A DNA stretch of 64,000 bases from Tubulanus polymorphus (lineage: Eukaryota > Nemertea > Palaeonemertea > Tubulaniformes > Tubulanidae): the NCBI RefSeq assembly GCF_964204645.1, contig NC_134028.1:23162153-23226152 (forward strand), read 5' to 3'. Position numbers and translations under genes: made by a program. Below are positions 1 to 23,300 of this stretch, piece by piece. Under the pieces are notes generated by a model. The model was given only the letters and a program-made list of their open reading frames with translations, was not told the DNA's origin and ran no database searches. The first letter of the stretch is position 1. Each line of letters starts with the position of its first letter.

Positions 1-250
1 ATGATTTATGTGGAACTAATGACGTAGTTAGTGAAAGATTCATCTGTATCAGTGTTGCTGCTGGTGTTGGTGCAAGTTACACAACTTTTTGCTGTCTGTC
101 TCTAAAAGATTAAACTTGATCCGAGTCGGAACTGATGAGAGTTCTAGTCAGACGACAAATAAGGAAAAGAAAGCCATATGAAAAGAAAAAATATAAAGCG
201 AATGCGTGAGCTTCGAACCACAAAATAAAACAGCATCAAATGCTGATAAA

Positions 251-334
251 GAGTGGAGTCCGAGAGCAATTCGAAGGTTTAGTGTCCTGCACGCTTAGAG
301 GGCGGGCAGGGGTCTATTCCTACCTCGACTCAAA
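251..334 (+). repeat. tRNA-like (SINE head-like) unit, copy 1
   Basis: An ~83-base unit whose ends can pair like an acceptor stem (GAGTGGA with TCGACTC, one mismatch) and which ends TCGACTCA. Near the 3' end GGGTCTATTCC matches the tRNA B-box consensus GGTTCGANTCC at 8 of the 10 specified positions or so; a degenerate A-box-like GTCCGAGAGC lies near the 5' end. The size fits a long-variable-arm tRNA (Leu/Ser class). I see no convincing anticodon arm, so a tRNA-derived SINE head or tRNA pseudogene is more likely than a working tRNA. Confidence 0.45.
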
Positions 335-352
335 AAAAGGATAGAATATAAA

Positions 353-436
353 GAGTGGGGTCTGAGAGCAATTCGAAGGTTTAGTGTCCTGCACGCTTAG
401 AGGGCGGGCAGGGGTCTATACCTACCTCGACTCAAA
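353..436 (+). repeat. tRNA-like (SINE head-like) unit, copy 2
   Basis: Direct repeat of the 251-334 unit, displaced by 102 bases and differing at only a few positions (for example GTCTGAGAGC for GTCCGAGAGC, and GGGTCTATACC for GGGTCTATTCC). Both copies are preceded by ATAAAGAGTGG. The near-identity points to a recent tandem duplication. Confidence 0.45.
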
Positions 437-1150
437 CGCTTAAAGTAAGCGAGAAAAAAGCGTAAAAACGAAAATGGCAAATGAAGGAAAATGGCTTGAG
501 TTTGATTGGTTCCACTGGGTTCAAGTGCAAACTGGAAGAGACAATCAAACAAATTATTAATGATGTGTATATTTTGTAAACATCAGCAGTTCATAATCAA
601 TTGATAAATCTTATGAATAAGAAAACATAAAACAACCTGCTTATATAAAACCTCTATAGTAGAGAGTATAGAAATATCTGATCTAACTATCAACTGTCAT
701 TGTTTCACATCGGTTTCATAATTAGAGTGATGATGTTGAATTTGTGAAGCAACATAAATAGCATTAATTGTTTTGATCTCAGCCATCATTCTGGTCCTTG
801 GTTTGTGTTTGCCCTTCCCACAACGTTTTGTGAGTGGAGGTTTGGTTCGGGCTTATTTTCTTGGTTCGGGTGAACCCTCCATATACCTCCCCCTCCCTTA
901 CTACATTATTAATTAGGTTCCTCGGTCATTTGATGAAGTGAAATCTGTTTATACTAGGCATATGATCATTTGAATGCCTCCAAAATTGTGGAAAAGTATC
1001 TGTGAGTCCCGTCAATGATGCAATTGATTAAGGATTTCGATATATATATATGAAATTGATATGATCGTGAAAAATGGCAAATCGTTTTGTAGTTATGGTA
1101 CAGATGAGTGGTGTCTGAGGAGGAGACAAGAGAGTTGAGGAAGCATGATG

Positions 1151-1291
1151 GGAGGGCATTGAGGGAGGGTTAGGTAGGAGGGCATTGAGGGAGGGTTAGG
1201 TGGGAGGGCATTGAGGGAGGGTTAGGTGGGAGGGCATTGAGGGAGGGTTAGGTGGGAGGGCATTGAGGGAGGGCTAGGTGGGAGGGCATTG
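1151..1291 (+). repeat. G-rich minisatellite, 26-base unit
   Basis: About five and a half near-identical 26-base units (core GGAGGGCATTGAGGGAGGGT then TAGGTG) begin at 1151, 1177, 1203, 1229, 1255 and 1281. The last unit runs into the next array. Purine-rich on the + strand with repeated GGG tracts. Confidence 0.9.
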
Positions 1292-1590
1292 AGGGAGGGA
1301 ATGGGTTGGGGGGTGGGAGGGAAGGGGCGAGGGAGGGCGGGAGGAAAGGGGTCCGGGAGGGTTGGAGGGAAGGGGCAAGGGAGGGTGGGAGGGAAGGGGC
1401 GAGGGAGGGCGGGAGGGAAGGGGCGAGGGAGGGCGGGAGGGAAGGGGCGAGGGAGGGCGGGAGGGAAGGGGTCCGGGAGGGCGGGAGGGAAGGGGGGCGA
1501 GGGAGGGCGGGAGGGAAGGGGCGAGGGAGGGCGGGAGGGAAGGGGTCCGGGAGGGCGGGAGGGATGGGTTCCGGGAGGGTCAGGATGGGG
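1292..1590 (+). repeat. G-rich minisatellite, 24-base unit in two variants
   Basis: About 11-12 units built on GGGAGGGAAGGGG followed by either CGAGGGAGGGC or TCCGGGAGGGC. Both variants are 24 bases, so they form an irregular higher-order pattern. Three overlapping frames stay open only because the unit length is a multiple of three and the sequence lacks T; these are not genes. Runs of GGG at short spacing give strong G-quadruplex potential on the + strand. Confidence 0.9.
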
Positions 1591-1828
1591 GTTAGGTGAG
1601 TTGAAATGTTCTGATGTTTTAGTTAAACGGATGGGAATCTAATGAAGATGAGAGAACATAAGTCAATGTTCAATCACAGGATGAAGTAATGCAGTGATCT
1701 GTACTCTGTATCTGTACACAATGTTTGTTACATGTATCTGTAACTGTTAAATCAGTATGAAATAAGTACAGCAGTTTAATCTACAGAAATCCTGTACTGT
1801 TTCTGTCTCATTGATTGATAAGTAAAAA

Positions 1829-4800
1829 AGAATTAATGAATTTCTCACAGTCTCTGTTATTGTTTTACTCTCATTTACAGGATGAGAGTACACACTGCAG
1901 CAGCAGACCAGCAACAACAGCACCTCCAGCAGCGGCGGCGGCAGCACCAGCAGGTTATATGTTTATGTTTCCAGCATTCAATCACTCAAAGATCACTGCT
2001 AAGTTTAAAGTGAGTTTGCAATTGTTAAAACTCATTTATGTCCTCATCATCATTGGAGTTATCAAGGTTTTTATGTTTTCCATTCAATTTTCAGTGAACT
2101 ATGGAGGTTTTGGCACCCAACAATCAACCTCAAATATCGCTGGTTTATAAACATTGACGAAAATGGTAAATCTTTGATTTGGTGTGAAATGAAAATGGTA
2201 TGTCTTTGATTAGGTGTAAAACAGCTCTTATTTCATAACAATTTTACTGACAATATCTAACATTTGTTTTAGGGGCTGAAATTGGAACCCTTGACAATCT
2301 GTGAACAGTAAACATTGGGAATTCACTTCACATTTGTCAAAGATGGATATCACTTTGGATTCTCAAAACAAATACGGTACCGGTAAATATCTCTACAGAT
2401 TCTAGTCTCTGTTCGACTAAATTAAAAAACTCATTTCCTGATTACATATAGAAGCTACATTAATCACTGAAGGCGAATATTTTCAATCACTTCTATTCTG
2501 GTTAAAGGTCTAATCATCAAAATTATACAACTTTTGTATTCTAGGGCCCAAAGTAAAGCTGAACTTGTATTAAACATTGCGCTCCAAAAATCAAACAAGT
2601 CAGAAGTGGTGAGTTTTACCAGTATATCGATTTATTGCAGTAATTTGTGGTGATCTTTAGATCAAATACTAAATCAAGTCCAGAAAATGATGTGTTTTTG
2701 ATTGGTCAATGTTGGCAGGTATCAACGCTTTACTAGAGGACGCAGTCTAAAGCTACCATCAACCCTCTCACAAATCTGCATATACTCGACACATTGTGAT
2801 AAAGTACTCATTAACCTGGTAGGTTTTCAGAATGAAATAAATGCAATAGAATTTACTATTTTAACAGGCTCATTTAAAAGTTAAGTAAAAAAGTATTAAT
2901 GAATTTCTCACAGTCTCTGTTATTGTTTTACTCTCATTTACAGGATGAGAGTACACACTGCAGCAGCAGACCAGCAACAACAGCACCTCCAGCAGCGGCG
3001 GCGGCAGCACCACCAGGCTATCTGTTTATGTTTTCATCATTCAATCACTCAAAGATCACTGCTTAGTTTAAAGTGAGTTTGCAATTGTTAAAACTCATTT
3101 ATGTCCTCATCATCATTGGAGTTATCAAGGTTTTTATGTTTTCCATTCAATTTTCAGTGAACTATGGAGGTTTTGGCACCCAACAATCAACCTCAAATAT
3201 CGCTGGTTTATAAACATTGACGAAAATGGTAAGTCTTTGATTTGGTGTGAAATGAAAATGGTATGTCTTTGATTTGGTGTGAAACTGCTCTTATTTCATA
3301 ACAATTTTACTGACAATTTCTAACATTTGTTTTAGGAGCTGAAATAAGTGGAACCCTTGACAATCTGTGAAAGATGGATATCACTTTGGATTCTCAAAAC
3401 AAATACGGTACCGGTAAATATCTCTACAGATTCTAGTCTCTGTTTGACTAAATTAAAAAACTCATTTCCTGATTACATATAGAAGCTACATTAATCACTG
3501 AAGGCGAATATTTTCAATCACTTCTATTCTGGTTAAAGGTCTAATCATCAAAATTATACAACTTTTGTATTCTAGGGCCCAAAGTAAAGCTGAACTTGTA
3601 GTAAAACATTGCGCTCTAAAAAGCAAACAAATCAGTAGTGGTGAGTTTTACCAGTATATCGATTTATTGCAGTAATTTGTTGTGATCTTTAGATCAAATA
3701 CTAAATCAAGTCCAGAAAATGATGTGTTTTTGATTGGTCAATTTTGGCAGGTATCAACGCTTTACTAGAGGACGCAGTCTAAAGCTATCATCAAACCTCT
3801 CACAAATCTGCATATACTCGACACATTGTGATAAAGTACTCATTAACCTGGTAGGTTTTCAGAATGAAATAAATGCAATAGAATTTACTATTTTAACAGG
3901 CTCATTTAAAAGTTAAGTAAAAAGTATTAATGAATTTCTCACAGTCTCTGTTATTGTATTTCTCACGGTCTCTGTTATTGTATTTCTCACAGTCTCTGTT
4001 ATTGTTTTACTCTCATTTACAGGATGAGAGTACACACTGCAGCAGCAGACCAGCAGCAACAGCACCTCCAGCAGCGGCGGCGGCGGCAGCACCAGCAGGT
4101 TATCTGTTTATGTTTTTAGCATTCAATCTCTCAAAGATCACTGCTTAGTTTAAAGTGAGTCTGCAATTGTTAAAACTCATTTATGTCCTGATCAACATTG
4201 GAGTTATCAAGACTTTTATGTTTTCCCATACAATTTTCAGTGAACTATGGAAGTTATGGCACACCCAACAATAAACCTCAAATAATGCTGGCTTAAAAAC
4301 ATTGACGAAAATGGTAAGTCTTTGATTTGGTGTGAAATGAAAATGGTATGTCTTTGATTTGGTGTGAAACTGCTCTTATTTCATAAAAATTTTACTGACA
4401 ATTTCTAACATTTGTTTTAGGAGCTGAAATAAGTGGAACCCTTGACAATCTGTGAAAGATGGATATCACTTTGGATTCTCAAAACAAATACGGTACCGGT
4501 AAATATCTCTACAGATTCTAGTCTCTGTTTGACTAAATTAAAAAACTCATTTCCTGATTACATATAGAAGCTACATTAATCAGTGAAGGCGAATATTTTC
4601 AATCACTTCTATTCTGGTTAAAGTTCAAATCATCAAATTATACAACTTTTGTATACTAGGGCCCAAAGTAAAGCTGAACTTGTAGTAAACATTGCGCTCT
4701 AAAAAGCAAACAAATCAGTAGTGGTGAGTTTTACCAGTATATCGATTTATTGCAGTAATTTGTGGTGATCTTTAGATCAAATACTAAATCAAGTCCAGAA

Positions 4801-6002
4801 AATGATGTGTTTTTGATTGGTCAATGTTGGCAGGTATCAACGCTTTACTAGAGGACGCAGTCTAAAGCTACCATCAAACCTCTCACAAATCTGCATATAC
4901 TCGACACATTGTGATAAAGTACTCATTAACCTGGTAGGTTTTCAGAATGAAATAAATGCAATAGAATTTACTATTTTAACAGGCTCATTTAAAAGTTAAG
5001 TAAAAAAGTATTAATGAATTTCTCACGGTCTCTGTTATTGTATTTCTCACAGTCTCTGTTATTGTTTTACTCTCATTTACAGGATGAGAGTACACACTGC
5101 AGCAGCAGACCAGCAACAACAGCACCTCCAGCAGCGGCGGCGGCAGCACCAGCAGGTTATATGTTTATGTTTCCAGCATTCAATCACTCAAAGATCACTG
5201 CTAAGTTTAAAGTGAGTTTGCAATTGTTAAAACTCATTTATGTCCTCATCATCATTGGAGTTATCAAGGTTTTTATGTTTTCCATTCAATTTTCAGTGAA
5301 CAGAGCTATGGAAGTTATGGCACCCAACAATCAACCTCAAATATCGCTGGTTTATAAACATTGACGAAAATGGTAAGTCTTTGATTTGGTGTGAAACTGC
5401 TCTTATTTCATAACAATTTTACTGACAATTTCTAACATTTGTTTTAGGAGCTGAAATGAACCCTTGACAATCTGTGAACAGTAAACATTGGGAATTCACT
5501 TGACAATCTGTGAAAGATGGATATCACTTTGGATTCTCAAAACAAATACGGTACCGGTAAATATCTCTACAGATTCTAGTCTCTGTTTGACTAAATTAAA
5601 AAACTCATTTCCTGATTACATATAGAAGCTACATTAATCAGTGAAGGCGAATATTTTCAATCACTTCTATTCTGGTTTAAGTTCAAAACATCAAAATATA
5701 CAACTTTTGTATTCTAGGGCCCAAAGTAAAGCTGAACTTGTAGTAAACATTTTGCTCCAAAAATCAAACATTTCAGAAGTGGTGAGTTTTACCAGTATAT
5801 CGATTTATTGCAGTAATTTGTGGTGATCTTTAGATCAAATCCTAAATCAAGTCCAGAAAATGATGTGTTTTTGATTGGTCAATGTTGGCAGGTATCAACG
5901 CTTTACTAGAGGACGCAGTCTAAAGCTACCATCAAACCTCTCACAAATCTGCATATACTCAACACATTGTGATAAAGTACTCATTAACCTGGTAGGTTTT
6001 CT
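1829..6002 (+). repeat. Tandem array, four ~1.05 kb units with exon-like cassettes
   Basis: The landmark GATGAGAGTACACACTGCAG recurs at 1881, 2944, 4023 and 5083, giving periods of 1063, 1079 and 1060. A second landmark, GGCAGGTATCAACGC, recurs near 2714, 3746, 4829 and 5887. Copies differ by point changes and small indels. The fourth copy diverges after ~6000, so the array ends within a unit. Each unit repeats the same series of splice-site-bounded segments (see the putative transcript entry). A trinucleotide stretch, CAG then GGCGGCGGC, varies by one repeat between copies. Confidence 0.9.
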
Positions 6003-6900
6003 GTCAATCAAACACAAACAAGTTGCAGTTTCTATTCATTTCATTGATTATTTTCTGGCATAATTTTCTCCTTCCAGAATGCAATACACCCAACACCAAT
6101 TGGAGCTGGAGAAATTAAAAATATTCACCTTCAAATAGTGAAGAAACTCTAGTTGTTGCTGAAGCTGCTATTGTTTGAATAAACTAAGTAATTTTCTCTA
6201 TACCTGGTTCTAGCTTGGTATAAAACTTAACAGTTCAATGATTTATATATATTTATTTTCTCAGAAAATTGTCAGTTCTCGTTTCGTAATGACTCTTGGA
6301 AGTGAAATCCTGCTAGATGGCACTGAACTAATATAATCCGATGCAACTTCAAGTTTAGAAATGGTGAGTTTTTCATCACTCCACTTTGCTCTAATTTGAT
6401 AATATTCGACCATTCTGTACAGAATTTTTATGTATGATTCTCCAGAAAGAAGTGTGGTTGCTGCTGATGATGCTGATGATGCTGCTGATGCCGATTTTCT
6501 AATAGAATTTAGCACCAATATCTGACTGCTATAATTTTCTAAATACGTTGCTAATTCTTTTCATATCGTAATGATTTATTGCAGCATGAAATTTGTCTGA
6601 TAGAACAATTGGAAAATGATCAAAGATTGAATAATGGTGTTAAATTATCTAGAATTATAAGGTAATTATAAATTCTAGATTACAAAATATTTCGTGAAAA
6701 CAATTCCCACTTGACTGTAAATTCAATCGAATTCAGTTTTCTCTCTTTTTCTAGGACGAAGTGGGGACCTGATATTCAATTTGACAAGGACAGGGACCAG
6801 CCATCTACCTGAAGATTGATATGCTGCTACTCATTTCTGGGATCTGCAATTGTAAAGTTTAAAGTCAAATATGTTACCGGTATTATATTGTGCTGGCCAG
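1881..6900 (+). ncRNA. Putative spliced transcript or decayed gene spanning the array
   Basis: In copy 1 the exon-like segments, each with a pyrimidine-AG acceptor and a GT donor, are 1881-1953, 2095-2165, 2273-2392, 2452-2500, 2545-2608 and 2719-2818; they recur in copies 2-4. After the array come 6078-6150 (approx.), 6265-6363, 6585-6661 and 6755 to about 6880. No copy keeps an uninterrupted frame through all segments, so a long non-coding RNA with amplified exons, or a tandemly duplicated and decayed coding gene, both fit. Several segments stay open in one conserved frame, which hints at coding ancestry. I do not recognise the encoded peptide. AATAAA near 7645 could serve as a poly(A) signal. 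The existence of a transcript is inference. Confidence 0.3.
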
Positions 6901-7694
6901 CATGGGCAGGTGACTGTTTGTGATAGTTTCATAGACTGCGTATCACAATCCATAAAACAATGGAGTCATCCCCTGATTCGTCTCTCAAAGCTGTTCTCAT
7001 TTTTGCTAATAGAATAATAGCCTGACTCGGGCGTAGAATATATGTGATTATAACCCCGCTATATGCAAATTTAAAAGATTAAAGGCGTAATTTATTTATC
7101 AAGAATCAGAATCAAGATAATAAAAGTAAATGAAGAAATAACTAGAACAACCTATGCACAAAATAACAAAACCTCTCAACCTAAGCACTTAACACCCTCT
7201 AGCTTTACTTTTCTCAATTAACTTGTTTTTCCCTCTCGATTTTTTAAATGTTCTAGTTATTTCTTCAAACTTGACGAGAGACCCTTTTAAATTTGTGTAA
7301 AGTGGGTTTTGATTTTTACTGAAAATTAATCTAATTTTAGATTAAATATAGCTGCAAAGCAGTGCTAATGGGTTTTCTGCCTCGCCAATTGAGGGAATTG
7401 AGAAAACCTTAATGATGGGCTTTCTGAGATGGATCAAGGGCATGAGATAATTTACGCAGTCCATGTAACTACATTAGTTAATTTGTATGATTTGTAACTT
7501 GTATGATATTGTAAATGGACATTTTTTGTATGACTGTATAGACCCACAATCAATGAAACCAAAATGTTGAAATATCGGCAGGTTTACTTTATTATGGGAC
7601 TACATGTATAATATTTCGTGCGAACTGACATTACTGTTCTATTTGAAATAAAGATGAATTTTCTGTGTTGTTCTAGTTATGATTACTGACGCCA
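6900..7694. other. Intergenic, no gene seen
   Basis: AT-rich sequence with stops in all frames. I see no repeat of note except a possible poly(A) signal AATAAA near 7645, which might belong to the putative upstream transcript. Confidence 0.5.
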
Positions 7695-7913
7695 GCAGTT
7701 TCACACACTCAGCGCGTCACATCTCATCATTGTTCAGTTTCATGAAGTTTTATGAAATTAAGCTGAGGGTCCATTCGACATGGAATTGTTGAATTGCAGT
7801 TGACCCTACGTTACGGTTATGTGAAACGGACCACGTAGACCCGGTTCATGAACATAGTTTAACTGAACTGAACTGAAGTTACCGTACTCGCCATTTAAAG
7901 TGTGTGAAACTGC
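7695..7913. mobile_element. MITE-like element with 15-base terminal inverted repeats
   Basis: GCAGTTTCACACACT at 7695-7709 is the exact reverse complement of AGTGTGTGAAACTGC at 7899-7913. The ~219-base interior has no coding capacity. No target-site duplication was confirmed. Confidence 0.6.
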
Positions 7914-7920
7914 AAAGGGG

Positions 7921-8072
7921 TCATTCATTTATTACGTACGCATTAGGGGAGGGGGTCAGTGCAATTGCGTACTGTAATGCTTAATGTATATGGAAAAAAA
8001 TGGCCCATTTTGCGTACAGAGGGGGAGGGGGTTGGAAATTTCAAATTTTATGCGTACGTAATAAATGAATGA
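7921..8072. mobile_element. MITE with 22-base perfect terminal inverted repeats
   Basis: The left terminus 7921-7942 (TCATTCATTTATTACGTACG then CA) is the perfect reverse complement of 8051-8072. The 152-base element holds two G-rich tracts (near 7946 and 8020) and no ORF. It lies 7 bases from the preceding MITE. Confidence 0.8.
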
Positions 8073-8544
8073 TCTCAAACCGATTGAACCCTTTGAAAAA
8101 CTGAGATAATGTAGAAATTAATATACGCCTTTTTTGAGACATGTAGATCAGGATTTATACCCTGGCATGCAGTTATCATTCTTACCCTGGCATGCGATGA
8201 TTCATTGATTCTCGCCCTCTTCAATACGATGCTTATAGTCAACCCCTGATTTATATAATAATATACCGCCAGGTTTTCTTAGTGTATATCTCGAGACATA
8301 CATGGTAAAACATCCCCCCCCCCACCCAAATATACAGCCACACTCTGGTACTAAAATCATTTGATCTTCATGGTGTTTGGTCTAATCATGGCTCCAACCA
8401 CCCCCAATAAAATTATCAAGCTGCTCCAGTCTAAAATGCATCTTTTATTCTTCGTCGTGGCTATTTCAAATCAACGACAGTAATTCCAACCCCAAATTAA
8501 GAACTTATAAACGCTTTGAACTAGAAAAATACATGTATATAGTT

Positions 8545-9008: not shown

Positions 9009-9060
9009 GTAGTTTTCTACGTTTGAACCTGGCACATCGCCTAGTTTATCAATGATGCTA

Positions 9061-9297
9061 TGATCGCCATCTATTGGAATTTGACCGAACCGACTAGATA
9101 GCTCTTATTTGTCTCACTGACGTTTCTTCACTGTGCTGAAATCACACTCGCCATCTGGTGGATATAGCCATCATTAAACTGTAGTAGCATAGAAATCCAC
9201 CAGATGGCGAGTGTGATTTCTGCACATTGAAGAAGAGTCAGTGAGACAAATAAGAGCTGTCTAGTCGGTTCAGCCATATTCCAATAGATGGCGATCA
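9061..9297. mobile_element. Foldback element with ~105-base inverted arms
   Basis: Arms 9061-9167 and 9190-9297 are near-complete inverted repeats: TGATCGCCATCTATTGGAAT at the left end matches the right end in reverse complement, and CACACTCGCCATCTGGTGGA matches near the centre. The central spacer is ~22 bases. The open frame on the minus strand here is a by-product of the palindrome. Confidence 0.8.
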
Positions 9298-16100: not shown

Positions 16101-17388
16101 ATACTGGCTTTACCTGTTGAAATAGTCTCCGTCGAGATCAGTCAAATAGTACCAGCTTTGGAGGTTCGTAAATGTAAATGGTATTTCCATTGTTTAAACG
16201 TCAGTCATAATGTATAATTCTATGCATTTTCTCGTTTCCAGACTGCGTTCGAAATCGGTTTAAGTTACCTGCCATTGGCTGCTGCCGGTTTAGACGCTTT
16301 AGAACGATGGTCCAATCGTCTGCCGTCTGCCGTTATGAAGCCGTACTACAAGTCGATTCTACCGCGCCTCGATTGTTACCTTTCGTCGCCGATGGACGAC
16401 GATAAAGACGCCGTCACGATAATCGCCACGCCCATGTCGAAAAGAGGCAAGCGAAAAGTTCCGATTAAACTTCTAGAAAGCACCGTGAAGAAAAAAGGGC
16501 AAGCAACTCAACTAGTAAGTCTTCATTCACATTCAGAAATCAGTTCGAATGATTTTGTTGTAATCTTCTGATCGAGTTCAATGTTTCATCTTAGCAGACG
16601 TCATCAGAGATCCAGCTGATTCAAATCAAAAAGCGTATCGTCGTTCTACTCGGTTCAATTGGAGGTTGCAACAATAAATGGCTGATCGATACGAGTGCCG
16701 ACGACGTCGCCAGTCTAGCCGTCGCTTGGGATACGGAAAAACATTTACGTTTCGATGTGCCGTTTATGGACATGAAACCTACGATATATTTCGGTGAGCT
16801 ACTGGAGTAACTGAGTTACTGGTTTATCACTGTAAAGATAGTATCATTCTATTTCCAGTGGCTTCTTGATAATCGTCAGGTGCAGTTCTTTACTTTAACG
16901 GGGACCATGCCCTTATATACAGTACAAGAATAATCTGATTTATCTGATTGCAGTGATATGGAGTTCATTTACACTTATTCCAATTCAAAACGTGTGTCCT
17001 TCAAATTTCATTCATGAATCTAATAGTCTAATAGAATTTGTCTTAACTGGCATCTAGTAGTGACATTATTGAAATTGTTTTTTGGTCATTATTTAACAAG
17101 GTTCCATTGTATACTCATCAACTCCTGTTGTTTATTGCTGTTTCTTCCAACTTCTCTTTTCGATCTCCAGATGATTTCCTGCCACGTATTGTGAATTTAG
17201 CGACTCAATCGAGCGATCGGCAGACGAAAGTAGCCGCGTGCGAGTTGTTACATTCCCTCATACTCTACACGCTCGGTCGCAGTGTCCAACAACCGGGTCA
17301 AGGACACGGACCGGCGAAATACTCGATGGAGAAACTGTATCAACGTCTATTTCCAGTTGTGCTTAAGTTATCGTGTGATGTTGAATTG
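10109..17388 (+). other. PRKDC: PRKDC exons 1-22: N-terminal HEAT arm (aa 1-980)
   Basis: Exons: 10109-10253, 10591-10667, 10835-10927, 11147-11218, 11328-11436, 11520-11632, 11725-11821, 11904-12055, 12523-12615, 12692-12751, 12840-12935, 13030-13197, 13814-13924, 14056-14262, 14753-14997, 15383-15466, 15555-15630, 15719-15853, 16044-16163, 16242-16514, 16598-16793, 17171-17388. Recognisable family stretches include [29 protein letters not shown] and [15 protein letters not shown]. Each junction keeps phase. The acceptor of the exon at 16598 is a NAGNAG (CTTAGCAG), so one Gln may be included or skipped. This alpha-helical arm wraps DNA and contacts Ku in the known structures. Confidence 0.85.
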
Positions 17389-20300
17389 GTAAGTATGCAG
17401 AAGAATGCTTTATTTTAACCAATTCTTGGTTGCGATTTAGGGCTAATTCTCAAGTCGTATCTAATGAATACCGGGTATCGGTGGAACAGGGGCTTGTTGC
17501 ATATTCACAGCTTAGTGAAAAACGACCAGTCAAAGACTCTCTCGCCAATCTAACAACTTAACTAACGACGGGTCTTAAGTTGTTACAACCACTTTTGGAC
17601 TCAAGCCACGACTGTGCAACCTGGGTCCTCGAAGTGGAGTGCTTTATGAAAATCAGGCACTGAAAAGTTTCCCCTTTATTATCAGGTTGCGAAACAGCTG
17701 TTTGAACCCTTGATGATGCAGTTGATTCATTGGTTTACGAACAACAAAAAGTTTGAAAGTGACGACACCAACGCCTTGCTTAAGGCTATTCTGGTACGTA
17801 TAGTTCACAATTGCGTATGAAACTATGAATTACTGACATAATTTTACAATTGAAACTTCTATTTATTTGCAGGCTGGTGTTGTCCATCCTACCGATTCTG
17901 CTCTCCGGGATTTCAGCGCCAAATGTGTGAAAGAGTTTCTGAAATGGTCGATCAAACAGACTACTAAAAAGGTAAGAAAAACACATGAGCTCTTCCAGGG
18001 GGATTTGTCGGGCTTATAGTCCGTCAAATTTGAATAAAGTGCCCTTTGGTGCATTTAAGTGAAGAGTGAATCTTTTTTGACAAGTTCTTCAAAATAAGCC
18101 ATCCCATATTTTTGACTGTAAATCGATGCCACTAATACACTATTTTTTCTACATTCTGATTTTCCAGATGCAAGAAAAAAGTCCGATTAACACGAAATCT
18201 TTGCTAAAACAACTCTATAGCCTAGCGTTGCACCCTTCTCCTTTCAAAAGATACGGGGCTGCACTTGCATTCAATAATATCTACGATATATTCAGGTCAG
18301 TAAGAACTTTCGAGGTGTTCGCTTTTTGTGAGAGTTTTTTCGATTGAAGGTTCTTTTCATTTGTCTGTCTCGAGACAGAAGAGAGTTATTTTCGAACAGC
18401 AGCACACAAAGGAAAGAGATAGAATTCCAGAGATTTCGATCTTTTATTGCCTGTATCATATTTCAGAGAAGAGGAAGCTCTTTTGGATCAGTTTACATTT
18501 GAGATTCTCGCCAACTACGTCGATAGTCTGGCGATAGCTCATGCAGATGACAAATCCCTCGGAACTCAAGACCAATGTAAAGAAGCTCTGGACCATTTGG
18601 ATAAAATCCTACGCAAACGAGCAGCCATTTTTATGAAACCGTCGAGTCAAAGACGATTACCGAGGTATTTTGAGATTTTTTTCAGTCTTCAGGTTGCGAA
18701 ATTCTTTCGTAGATTTCCGAAAAATTGATGATCGAATATCGATATATTTTCAGAGAATGGAGCAAGGCTACCCTAGATGTGTGCATACGATGGCTTATGC
18801 GACAGTGTGGACGTCCACAGACTGAATGCAGACATTCGTGTATGAAACTAGTGTGTAATTTAGCCACATGTATTCCAGGTGAATGTTCTGTCTTTTCTAT
18901 ATACATTCCAAAGTTTCCTTCCTGCTAAATGATTTATTGATTCGACATTTTGACTATAACCTAATAGTCATCTTCAGAAGATGATGGGGTGATTCTCTCT
19001 CTATATATATACATATCCTCACAACACGGACATAGTGTTTCATTAATGGTTATCCTATCTTTTATGAACTCAATAAGATTATAATCAATCTTATTCCAAC
19101 TGTATTTCTCCTATTGTGCGTAGAGTGACTTCCACCTTTGTCCACCTTTTGGCTGAGTGCAGGTTAGAGCAATTTATTTTATATTGCTCATGTCACTATG
19201 ATAGATAAGTAGATGAATAATAGATATTATATCTAATCAAATCAATGACTTATTCTTTTTACGCGCAGGAATAAAAGATGTGCCGTCGCTGTTCAAGAAT
19301 CTACTGAACTCAGCAGACGGAGCCGATTACTTTCTGATTAGATTTGAAGCGGGGACGTACATGTCGAACGGCGAGCACGCAGGTTTAGCGAAATACCCGA
19401 CCATGACGGAAATCGATTCGGTTTTTAGCATCAAAATAGCCGTGCGATGGTTTGAATTGCTGCTCACGTGTTTAGACTGTTACACGTGGGTGTTCGGCGA
19501 AGGTCTTCTTAAACCGGCTGACATTTTTCTAGGTACTTGCTTATTCACCTACCTCATTCTATCCATCACCTGATTACAATGTGAAACTGGTTGAACTTTT
19601 CTTTGCTGATTTTAGCGAAAAATGGAAAGAAGTGCTCGATTTTGTTCAAGTCATTAGAGTATTTTTTGAATGAAATAGCTTGTCAAAATATCGAATATGT
19701 AGCTGGTTGTTTTTCGGTGAAGTCCGGAAGAGAGGTGTTTACTCCACGTGAAGTTGACCACTTTAATAGGTAAAAAACTGTAAAAGAAATGTGAAGGAAA
19801 TCAATATTTAATGAATACGATTACTATCAATTTCGTTTTATTCTTCAGGTCAAAGTGCACTGTTCTCGTGAGATTGATGAACTTTTTGACGATCGTATTC
19901 GGAAGATATCCTAGCGACGGTGTGAAAGTGTTGCCGCCATCTTTGCTGTCGAATGACAATCTCTGGCGGATATTGTGCTGTTGCGTTACCGATCCCGTGG
20001 CCATAGGATTCAATATGGCCGATGTGGAGGTTATCATGAGATTACCTCAAGAAGTAAGCGCAGTTACTGTCAATGGGTAACAAGAAAGATGAAATAGCAT
20101 CAATAATGTATTGTCAAAATATGTCCAGGTTCCAGTACCTTAAATCAAGAGTTATTGGCTTCTGATATATTAGGTCAGATTTATGGTTTCTGCTGTTTGT
20201 AGGTCGAGCAGTTGATGCTAGTTTTCAGAAAACGTCTGCCACAAAACGCGCTCCACCAATTGCAGGCACAGTTACGTGATAAATTACAACAACTCAGGTA

Positions 20301-23300
20301 AATACCTAGCACTCCCATGTTGTATTAAACTAGAATTCTATGCATTCTTATTGTGTTACATGACTGTAACTGTGGACTGATTGATGTCATTTGATTTTCT
20401 AGTCTTCCCGTGAAGTTGTCATCTGGTGAATCCTACGATCACGTACAGTTCATACATCTCGTGACTGGCTACGAAATCCTGTTCAAAACTGACTTTCTAA
20501 CTTCCCTCTTACCGGCGAGTCAGTCCGTGCCGAAACTCGCACTAGAACTACTAAATAACGTCTTCAAAGTAGGTTATCTTTTTAATCATCAGATTAATTG
20601 TCTCGATTTCATCAAGGGGCCACCACTTGGAAATCAGGGAAAAGTCAGGGAAATTTATTTTCTTTAAGAAAGTCAGGGAATTTTGTAAAAATGCTCAAAA
20701 TCAGGGAACAGTCAGGGAAATATGTTGAGAATGCTAGATTTATGCGTACAATCAAACAGTTTCTTTCTATATCTTATGTTTTTGACTGTTTTAATTGATT
20801 GAATTCTTAGCAGATCAGGGAAAATACAAATGCAAGTGCGATAAAAGTGGCCGCCCTGGGTTTCTATATGATCAAAGCGATTATAGAATATTTTCAGCGT
20901 TTAACTCGCGTCGAATCGGGTGATTATTACATCGCTGATCTGTCGCCGACGACGACTGACCTCGCCGACAAGTTGTTGAATCTGTCGTTGCTAATCGGCG
21001 TCGATGTCGATAGTCTGGTGAAATTGATCGTCGATCGCACGGTTTTGAAGAACGTCGAAGGCAACGTCGCGTGTTATTACGGTTCGTTGTTTTACACGAC
21101 GTTCAAAGCGACGATCAATTCGTTCGTCGTTTCTCGCGCCGATCGAGTTCTGACGCGTCTGCTCAAATGCGTCGATACCGACGCTAATCTCGTGGCCGCC
21201 GTCGTGACGAGCGTTCTCGACCAAATCGGAAAGGATCGTCAGTTGCGTAAAACGTAAGCTCATGTTTTCATTGGTTCAGGGTGGCACCACTGACCTGGAA
21301 AACTCGGGGAATCAGAAAAATCTAGAAAACAATCGGAGATAATTTGGGGAACTTGACAAATTATGCAAAAAGCCTGGGAAATTCAGGGAATTCGGATAAT
21401 GTTATTGACTATGCGTTTCTTAATCAATACGTGATTCAATGAAAAATGATAACATTTTAGTAAAAATAAGTAATATTTTAAGACTAGAAATTGTTCCTAT
21501 TCACGCAGGATATTTTGTGAAGTAATCACATGAAAAGTCGGGGCAATGAGCAGAAAGTTGCCACCACCCTGTCATATTTTGAAATGTTTCAGTTGGTATT
21601 TTGCAAAGATTTTTAGATGAGCCGTGTTTTAACTTGGGTCGAATCATTTAAATGTTGAGACAAATAGTTAACCTGATTTTGAGTTAAAAGGTTTCACTGC
21701 TAATGTATTGTAGCTTCATCAGGTGAATGGGCCATTTACGTGATAAAGCTACCATAAATTAGTAGTACCGCGCGGTAAAAGCTCATATCTTCGATGAAAC
21801 TAATTAACTCTTTCAGTGCTCTCTAACTCTCTTCAGTGCTCTTTAACTCTATACTGCGATGTGGTGTATAGTATAGATTGGTGATGGACTAACCTGTTAA
21901 GTACCGGTGTGTTATTTTGCCTGTATGTCGTTGCATAACCTAGACCTACGCGTTTCAGTGAAGGTGTTGCGCTTGTCGGCGCGTTGCTCGGAAGGTGGAA
22001 CGATCTGAAAAGCTGGTGGATGAATCCTAAAGACAATGAACTGCTTGTAGCTGTCATTAATATATTCAACAAAGTCTTACTCATTGACTCATCGGTAAAG
22101 AAGATATTCACGACAAACCCAGCACAAGATTTGAAGTGTTACGTTTTAGTCATAGAGAATATTTGATTGATTTGCAGGTTACCAAAGATGTCAATCATCC
22201 AGCACATGAATGCGTACTGAACATGTACTGCCATTTACTTAGTGATAATAAAACAACGCTAGTTTTCAAGGTCTGTTTCCTAACATCGTAGCTTCGTTTC
22301 TAAAAAAAACCTGATGATTTTGAGTCGTATGCTTCTGTTATCAAAAGGGTCAAGTCTTGGATCTTTTGTTTTTCTTCTCCGAGCTGCCAGACATCGAAAC
22401 AACTAAACTCAGGTAAAAAACGAACTTTCACCATCGATGAATGAATAATGTAGGGTTTTACGTGGTCTTGCGCTCATTCACATTCATTTCAGACAAAGTT
22501 TGGATTGTCTAGTTACCGATTGTTTTCCGTTGCGTAGTACAGAATTTGACGTTGGAAGTCCTAAACACGATGAATACGTAACAGCAATGAGAAAGGTATC
22601 AATTAATACTAATCGTTTGTTACTGTTTCTGTATTATACTTAGCTGAACCAACTGTGATAACATCAGATTCTGGGTGAAGATGTTAGGCAGTAGTCCTTG
22701 TCGCCCAGGGGCGGGCGCAGAAAAACCTTGTTAGACTAACCATGGTTAGTGGCTCATCCATTGTTATGCTAACCAGCTTGAAATAAGAGGCCACACGAAG
22801 ACAATGGTTAGCGCTAACAGCATTTTCCTGCGCCAATTTATGCCTAACCAGTCTACTAACCACGGTTAGCACTAACAGGGTTTTCCTGCGCCCGCCCGCT
22901 TATCAAATTCTTTTTGTTTGTCTGCAGCTTCTCTACGCGTTTAAATTGTCCGGTAGTTTGATGTTATTAGAACTACTGATCAGTGTCATGTGTCGAGAAC
23001 CGAAACACATCATGGAGGATGAAATTCAGTCTTCGTTGATCAAATTCATCACCAGGTTTAGTTTAATCGTCGGCTGCTATCGATCAACGATTCCGTCGGT
23101 TTGTAAACCGTTTTAAAGCGTGTCATGTTTGTGTGTGTTCTAGGATGCCATTGGCTCGACAAGTCGCGGCCGTCGATGTACCGTATGACGTATTCAAGAT
23201 GGTGGATCGTTACCCGGACGATATTCGACGTGCCGCATTAGAACGCGTTTGTATTCCGCTTCTACGCCAGGTTCACGTCGGTGCCATTACGCAATTCTTT

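Follow-up and report, generated by a model that had tools for sequence, protein, structure and literature searches.

A tandem array of exon-like cassettes in one copy of a mainly subtelomeric repeat unit of Tubulanus polymorphus

In human, DDX11L is a multi-copy subtelomeric transcript family that comes from a rearranged gene fragment and has been spread by subtelomere exchange (PMC2705379). Human subtelomeric repeat elements, or segmental duplicons, are large, recent duplications in the distal ~500 kb of the chromosome arms (PMC7004388). In chicken and quail, large-unit subtelomeric tandem repeats with non-coding transcripts are described (PMC4301066).

The locus described here, which lies in a 64,000-nucleotide stretch of Tubulanus polymorphus DNA (the window), belongs to a family of subtelomeric duplicons and carries a local expansion of a cassette; loci of this kind are known. 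Among published systems, DDX11L comes closest to it in kind, though not in sequence, with copies of the present unit likewise found at many chromosome ends (PMC2705379); as far as can be told, the two are unrelated in sequence. The copies are also concentrated near chromosome ends in the manner of the human duplicons, whereas the present unit also occurs in head-to-tail ~11 kb arrays, with older copies at internal sites (PMC7004388). The bird repeats share with it a non-coding, subtelomeric tandem array (PMC4301066). For DDX11L a parent gene is known and transcripts have been detected (PMC2705379), and transcription is shown in the birds (PMC4301066), whereas the present family, with its splice-like structure, is known from sequence alone. 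Literature searches for repeated-exon lncRNAs or pseudogenes yielded nothing close.

The cassette array and its borders

Between window positions 1821 and 6003, a cassette of ~1.06 kb is repeated four times head to tail, and is followed by single-copy segments. The features, in window coordinates, are:

1821 to 2883, + strand: cassette copy 1 of the four-copy alignment, with the leading E0 segment missing
1881 to 1956, + strand: CAG-rich E1-like segment, which recurs at 2944, 4023 and 5083
2276 to 2382, + strand: E2-like segment, which recurs in the other cassettes; here it has a frameshift compared with subtelomeric relatives
2819 to 2830, + strand: junction 1, GTAGGTTTTCAG, a 5-bp TTTTC microhomology with the E5 donor side joined to the E0 acceptor side
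2884 to 3962, + strand: cassette copy 2 of the four-copy alignment, which pairs with copy 3 in the tree
3851 to 3862, + strand: junction 2, an identical join
3963 to 5022, + strand: cassette copy 3 of the four-copy alignment
4934 to 4945, + strand: junction 3, an identical join
5023 to ~6003, + strand: cassette copy 4, which continues into the single-copy 3′ part and is nearest to the sister copy (L005/L051)
6078 (approximate) to 6900, + strand: single-copy 3′ exon-like segments, equivalents of E6-E10

The copies are spaced 1031-1085 bp apart and are 92-97% identical in long gapped alignments. Since many sites and several indels distinguish them, assembly stutter is excluded. The earlier note had proposed a repeated multi-segment module of ~1.05 kb, in which a whole exon-intron-like module rather than a plain satellite is duplicated; the alignment of the four copies, with their splice-like borders in register, confirms this, and the single exon-like segments that were expected after the array are found at about 6078-6900.

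Every cassette has the borders TTTACAG/GATGAG, AAA/GTGAGT, ATG/GTAAGT, CCG/GTAAAT, GTG/GTGAGT and CTG/GTAGGT, with ATG/GTAAAT taking the place of ATG/GTAAGT in cassette 1. When scored with simple matrices, set by hand from textbook frequencies, donors of at least 6 bits occur at 5.3/kb on the + strand compared with 2.2 in a first-order Markov control, and at 0 compared with 1.9 on the - strand. Because a single cassette has six strong donors on the + strand and none on the - strand, the independent evidence in these densities is modest. In diverged copies, the GT of E2, E4, E5 and E9 and the AG of E0, E4, E6, E9 and E10 are retained in 91-100% of alignments, and no such retention is seen for the donors of E0 and E1 or for the acceptors of E1b, E3 and E8. 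Relative to local GT and AG controls, the retention gives p values of 0.012 (GT) and 0.043 (AG) with all alignments, and 0.07 for each with one alignment per locus. The pattern favours, but does not prove, an ancestor spliced on the + strand. There is doubt about the short intron that had been placed between main segments three and four (window 3539-3575), since many relatives have one frame open across both segments and the donor is not GTRAGT-like.

All three internal junctions have the form GTAGG-TTTTC-AG, whose TTTTC occurs both on the donor side of intron 5 and on the acceptor side of E0. The introns formed at these junctions are only 12 nt long and thus too short to splice, and the E0 donor is lost in the window copy. 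In the tree, the four window cassettes form one clade with the single cassette of the sister copy (C4:22.89 Mb), to which copy 4 is nearest. The leading E0 is deleted in both the window and the sister copy, with identical breakpoints, and E0 is still present at the internal junctions of the window. Based on this common deletion, the array may predate the split of the two copies and would then not have formed in the window copy alone; an array older than the split that later collapsed in the sister copy is the simplest reading, and gene conversion is an alternative.

Most subtelomeric copies examined have one cassette. The same region is amplified with other limits in L014 (four copies of ~1.8 kb), L016/L017, L036 and the copies on C8. 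Since at least three other loci have amplified the region with other junctions, the amplification is a recurrent local accident; that in the window belongs to its own branch of copies, and other branches amplified the region independently. We know of no counterpart to this internal amplification in DDX11L.

The repeat unit and its distribution

The array, which had been put forward as the best candidate in the window for an undescribed locus, lies inside one copy of a dispersed repeat unit of about 9.5-11 kb and belongs to a mostly subtelomeric family with roughly 90-100 copies in the 268-Mb genome. The bounds of 1829-6900 given in the earlier note are too narrow, as the duplicated unit spans at least window 1 to ~8080, with homology ~5 kb further left. 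The features outside the array are:

1 to 8080, + strand: in-window part of the repeat unit, which starts ~5 kb left of the window
1149 to 1568, + strand: G-rich minisatellite, upstream of the cassette in all unit copies aligned
9052 to 9297, no strand assigned: palindromic, MITE-like foldback element of ~250 bp, the right limit common to dispersed copies

Homology among dispersed copies continues to ~9.3-9.6 kb of the window. Four dispersed copies have similar left and right limits, with lengths of 9.5-14.7 kb, and the window copy is the longest owing to its array. The window copy has a segmental duplicate at C4:22.89 Mb, with 88-95% identity over most of its length. The foldback element is also seen at the right limit of this duplicate and of copies on C1 and C11.

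Tandem repeats make up 9-17% of unit copies and 0.9% of the remaining window, an approximately ten-fold enrichment, which marks the unit as prone to tandem duplication, whatever the scale. At window 246-436 lies a tandem duplication of 102 bp (96%), and its equivalent in dispersed copies on C11 and at C4:22.89 Mb is ~103 bp. In a unit read from L011/L012 (joined, reverse complement), positions 1679-1879 and 5103-5303 form a 200-bp inverted pair (95%). These arms flank two G-rich minisatellites externally, in an arrangement that resembles outward-facing promoters, and the right arm leads into the cassette. As terminal repeats of a transposable element the arms were rejected, being internal to the unit. 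Elsewhere in the window, at 17047-21254 on the + strand, lie exons of a homologue of DNA-PKcs (PRKDC; Pfam PF20502).

With one cassette as query, the assembly that contains the window yielded some 40 more long matches. A 33-aa stretch of one segment is found at 103 places and the adjoining 53-aa stretch at 99, and the 3′ part of the window copy has dozens of matches. The 33-aa stretch is 100% identical among copies on C1, C4, C5, C7, C10 and C11. Of 87 copies placed on numbered chromosomes, 57 are no more than 0.6 Mb from a chromosome end, where 5.3% would be expected, and 50 of these 57 are oriented inward, toward the chromosome interior; because copies inside one array are not independent, the significance of both counts is overstated. 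In subtelomeric clusters, the unit is repeated head to tail every ~10.9 kb, and neighbours are 96-98% identical over kilobases. Such ~11 kb arrays were seen at ends of C4, C10, C1, C7 and C11, with both orientations at the right end of C10.

TTAGGG tracts occur near ends of C1, C4 and C7. Within C4:25817-64566, blocks of TTAGGG on the minus strand lie 26, 48 and 65 kb from the contig start, and telomere-type repeats are thus interspersed in this subtelomere. Older copies of the unit are dispersed inside chromosomes. At C8:10.847-10.965 Mb, diverged units lie ~30 kb apart in a cluster, and those that were read have two cassettes ~1.55 kb apart.

Possible functions and rival readings

The array probably arose by local tandem expansion within a single internal copy of a repeat unit that has many copies, mainly subtelomeric ones. 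A functional family of spliced lncRNAs from subtelomeres, with repeated exons in some copies, is distinctly less probable, and the evidence on it is mixed. The strand bias of the strong donors, the well-retained donors of E2, E4, E5 and E9 in diverged alignments, the consistent inward orientation of near-end copies and a polyadenylation-like AATAAA retained near window 7648 would all be expected of such a family. Against it, the unit has no match in Rfam, the splice-constraint statistics are weak, and the window copy combines the lost E0 donor with the 12-nt junction introns. That the family is live, producing inward spliced transcripts with a number of exon cassettes that varies between loci, is improbable; if true, it would yield RNAs with a variable number of one exon series.

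Equally improbable is a fast-evolving protein family, in which the cassette would be a multi-exon domain repeated in frame and the window copy a pseudogene. Most copies have short open frames such as LEPLIESVNSKHWEFTSHLFKMDIALDPQNQYG, and in many a 53-codon frame runs across E3-E4. Synonymous, nonsynonymous and stop changes, indels and net frameshifts were counted for each exon-like part and frame, and no exon-like part showed a consistent frame constraint in any frame tested. Exon-like parts carry stops and net frameshifts as often as intron-like parts do, and when the whole unit was scanned against four dispersed copies, no open segment with low N/S in all copies was found. The E2 segment of the window is frameshifted, as listed above, and the CAG-rich exon-like part, which in relatives contains a 64-bp minisatellite, grows in steps of 64 bp, not a multiple of 3. 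Relative to the reference, exon-like parts are more diverged than intron-like parts at 16 of 16 loci, as the protein reading would expect, but the gap disappears in tree-aware parsimony (1.22 compared with 1.01 changes/site, p 0.13; 14% of circular shifts equal it), and faster evolution of exon-like parts was rejected. Six-frame and profile searches with reconstructed short frames gave no match in Pfam, PDB or viral contigs, and tRNA scans gave none. No intact coding ancestor of the unit was found. The C8 cluster was considered as an intact coding parent and rejected, as it is a more diverged copy of the unit and is also broken.

A transposable element with a long cargo would account for the similar limits of the dispersed copies and the foldback element at their right limit, but it too has little probability, as no terminal inverted repeats are present at the outer limits, the unit ORFs tested contain no transposase, reverse transcriptase or other transposable-element protein or Pfam domain, homology upstream of the left limit fades gradually, and the long collinear flanks shared by the window and L051/L054 speak for segmental duplication.

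Proposed origin and significance of the unit

Under the preferred reading, a local expansion in one copy of the repeat unit, the ancestor of the unit would have been a transcription unit spliced on the strand of the array. The first cassette duplication may have arisen through the TTTTC microhomology or replication slippage, which joined intron 5 to the E0 acceptor, and the array would then have expanded and contracted by unequal exchange. Whole units may have spread by exchange between chromosome ends, with occasional transfer to internal sites. Today the unit would be a family of non-coding transcripts or else no more than dead copies. The slightly better-kept splice dinucleotides (p 0.01-0.07), together with strong donors on one strand, make descent from a spliced, probably non-coding transcription unit plausible but unproven. 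A decayed gene or a lncRNA, as put forward in the earlier note, is still the best pair of candidates for the ancestor; neither is proven, and no coding signal was found in any frame. As far as the sequence can tell, the unit appears to be a repeat derived from a transcription unit that was spliced, and to be neutral or close to it.

An apparently unique locus thus becomes a member of a repeat family, and annotation of this genome requires care, as gene finders will call multi-exon genes here. If the family is transcribed, its roughly one hundred natural variants could be used to ask how spliced non-coding units originate and are propagated from chromosome ends.
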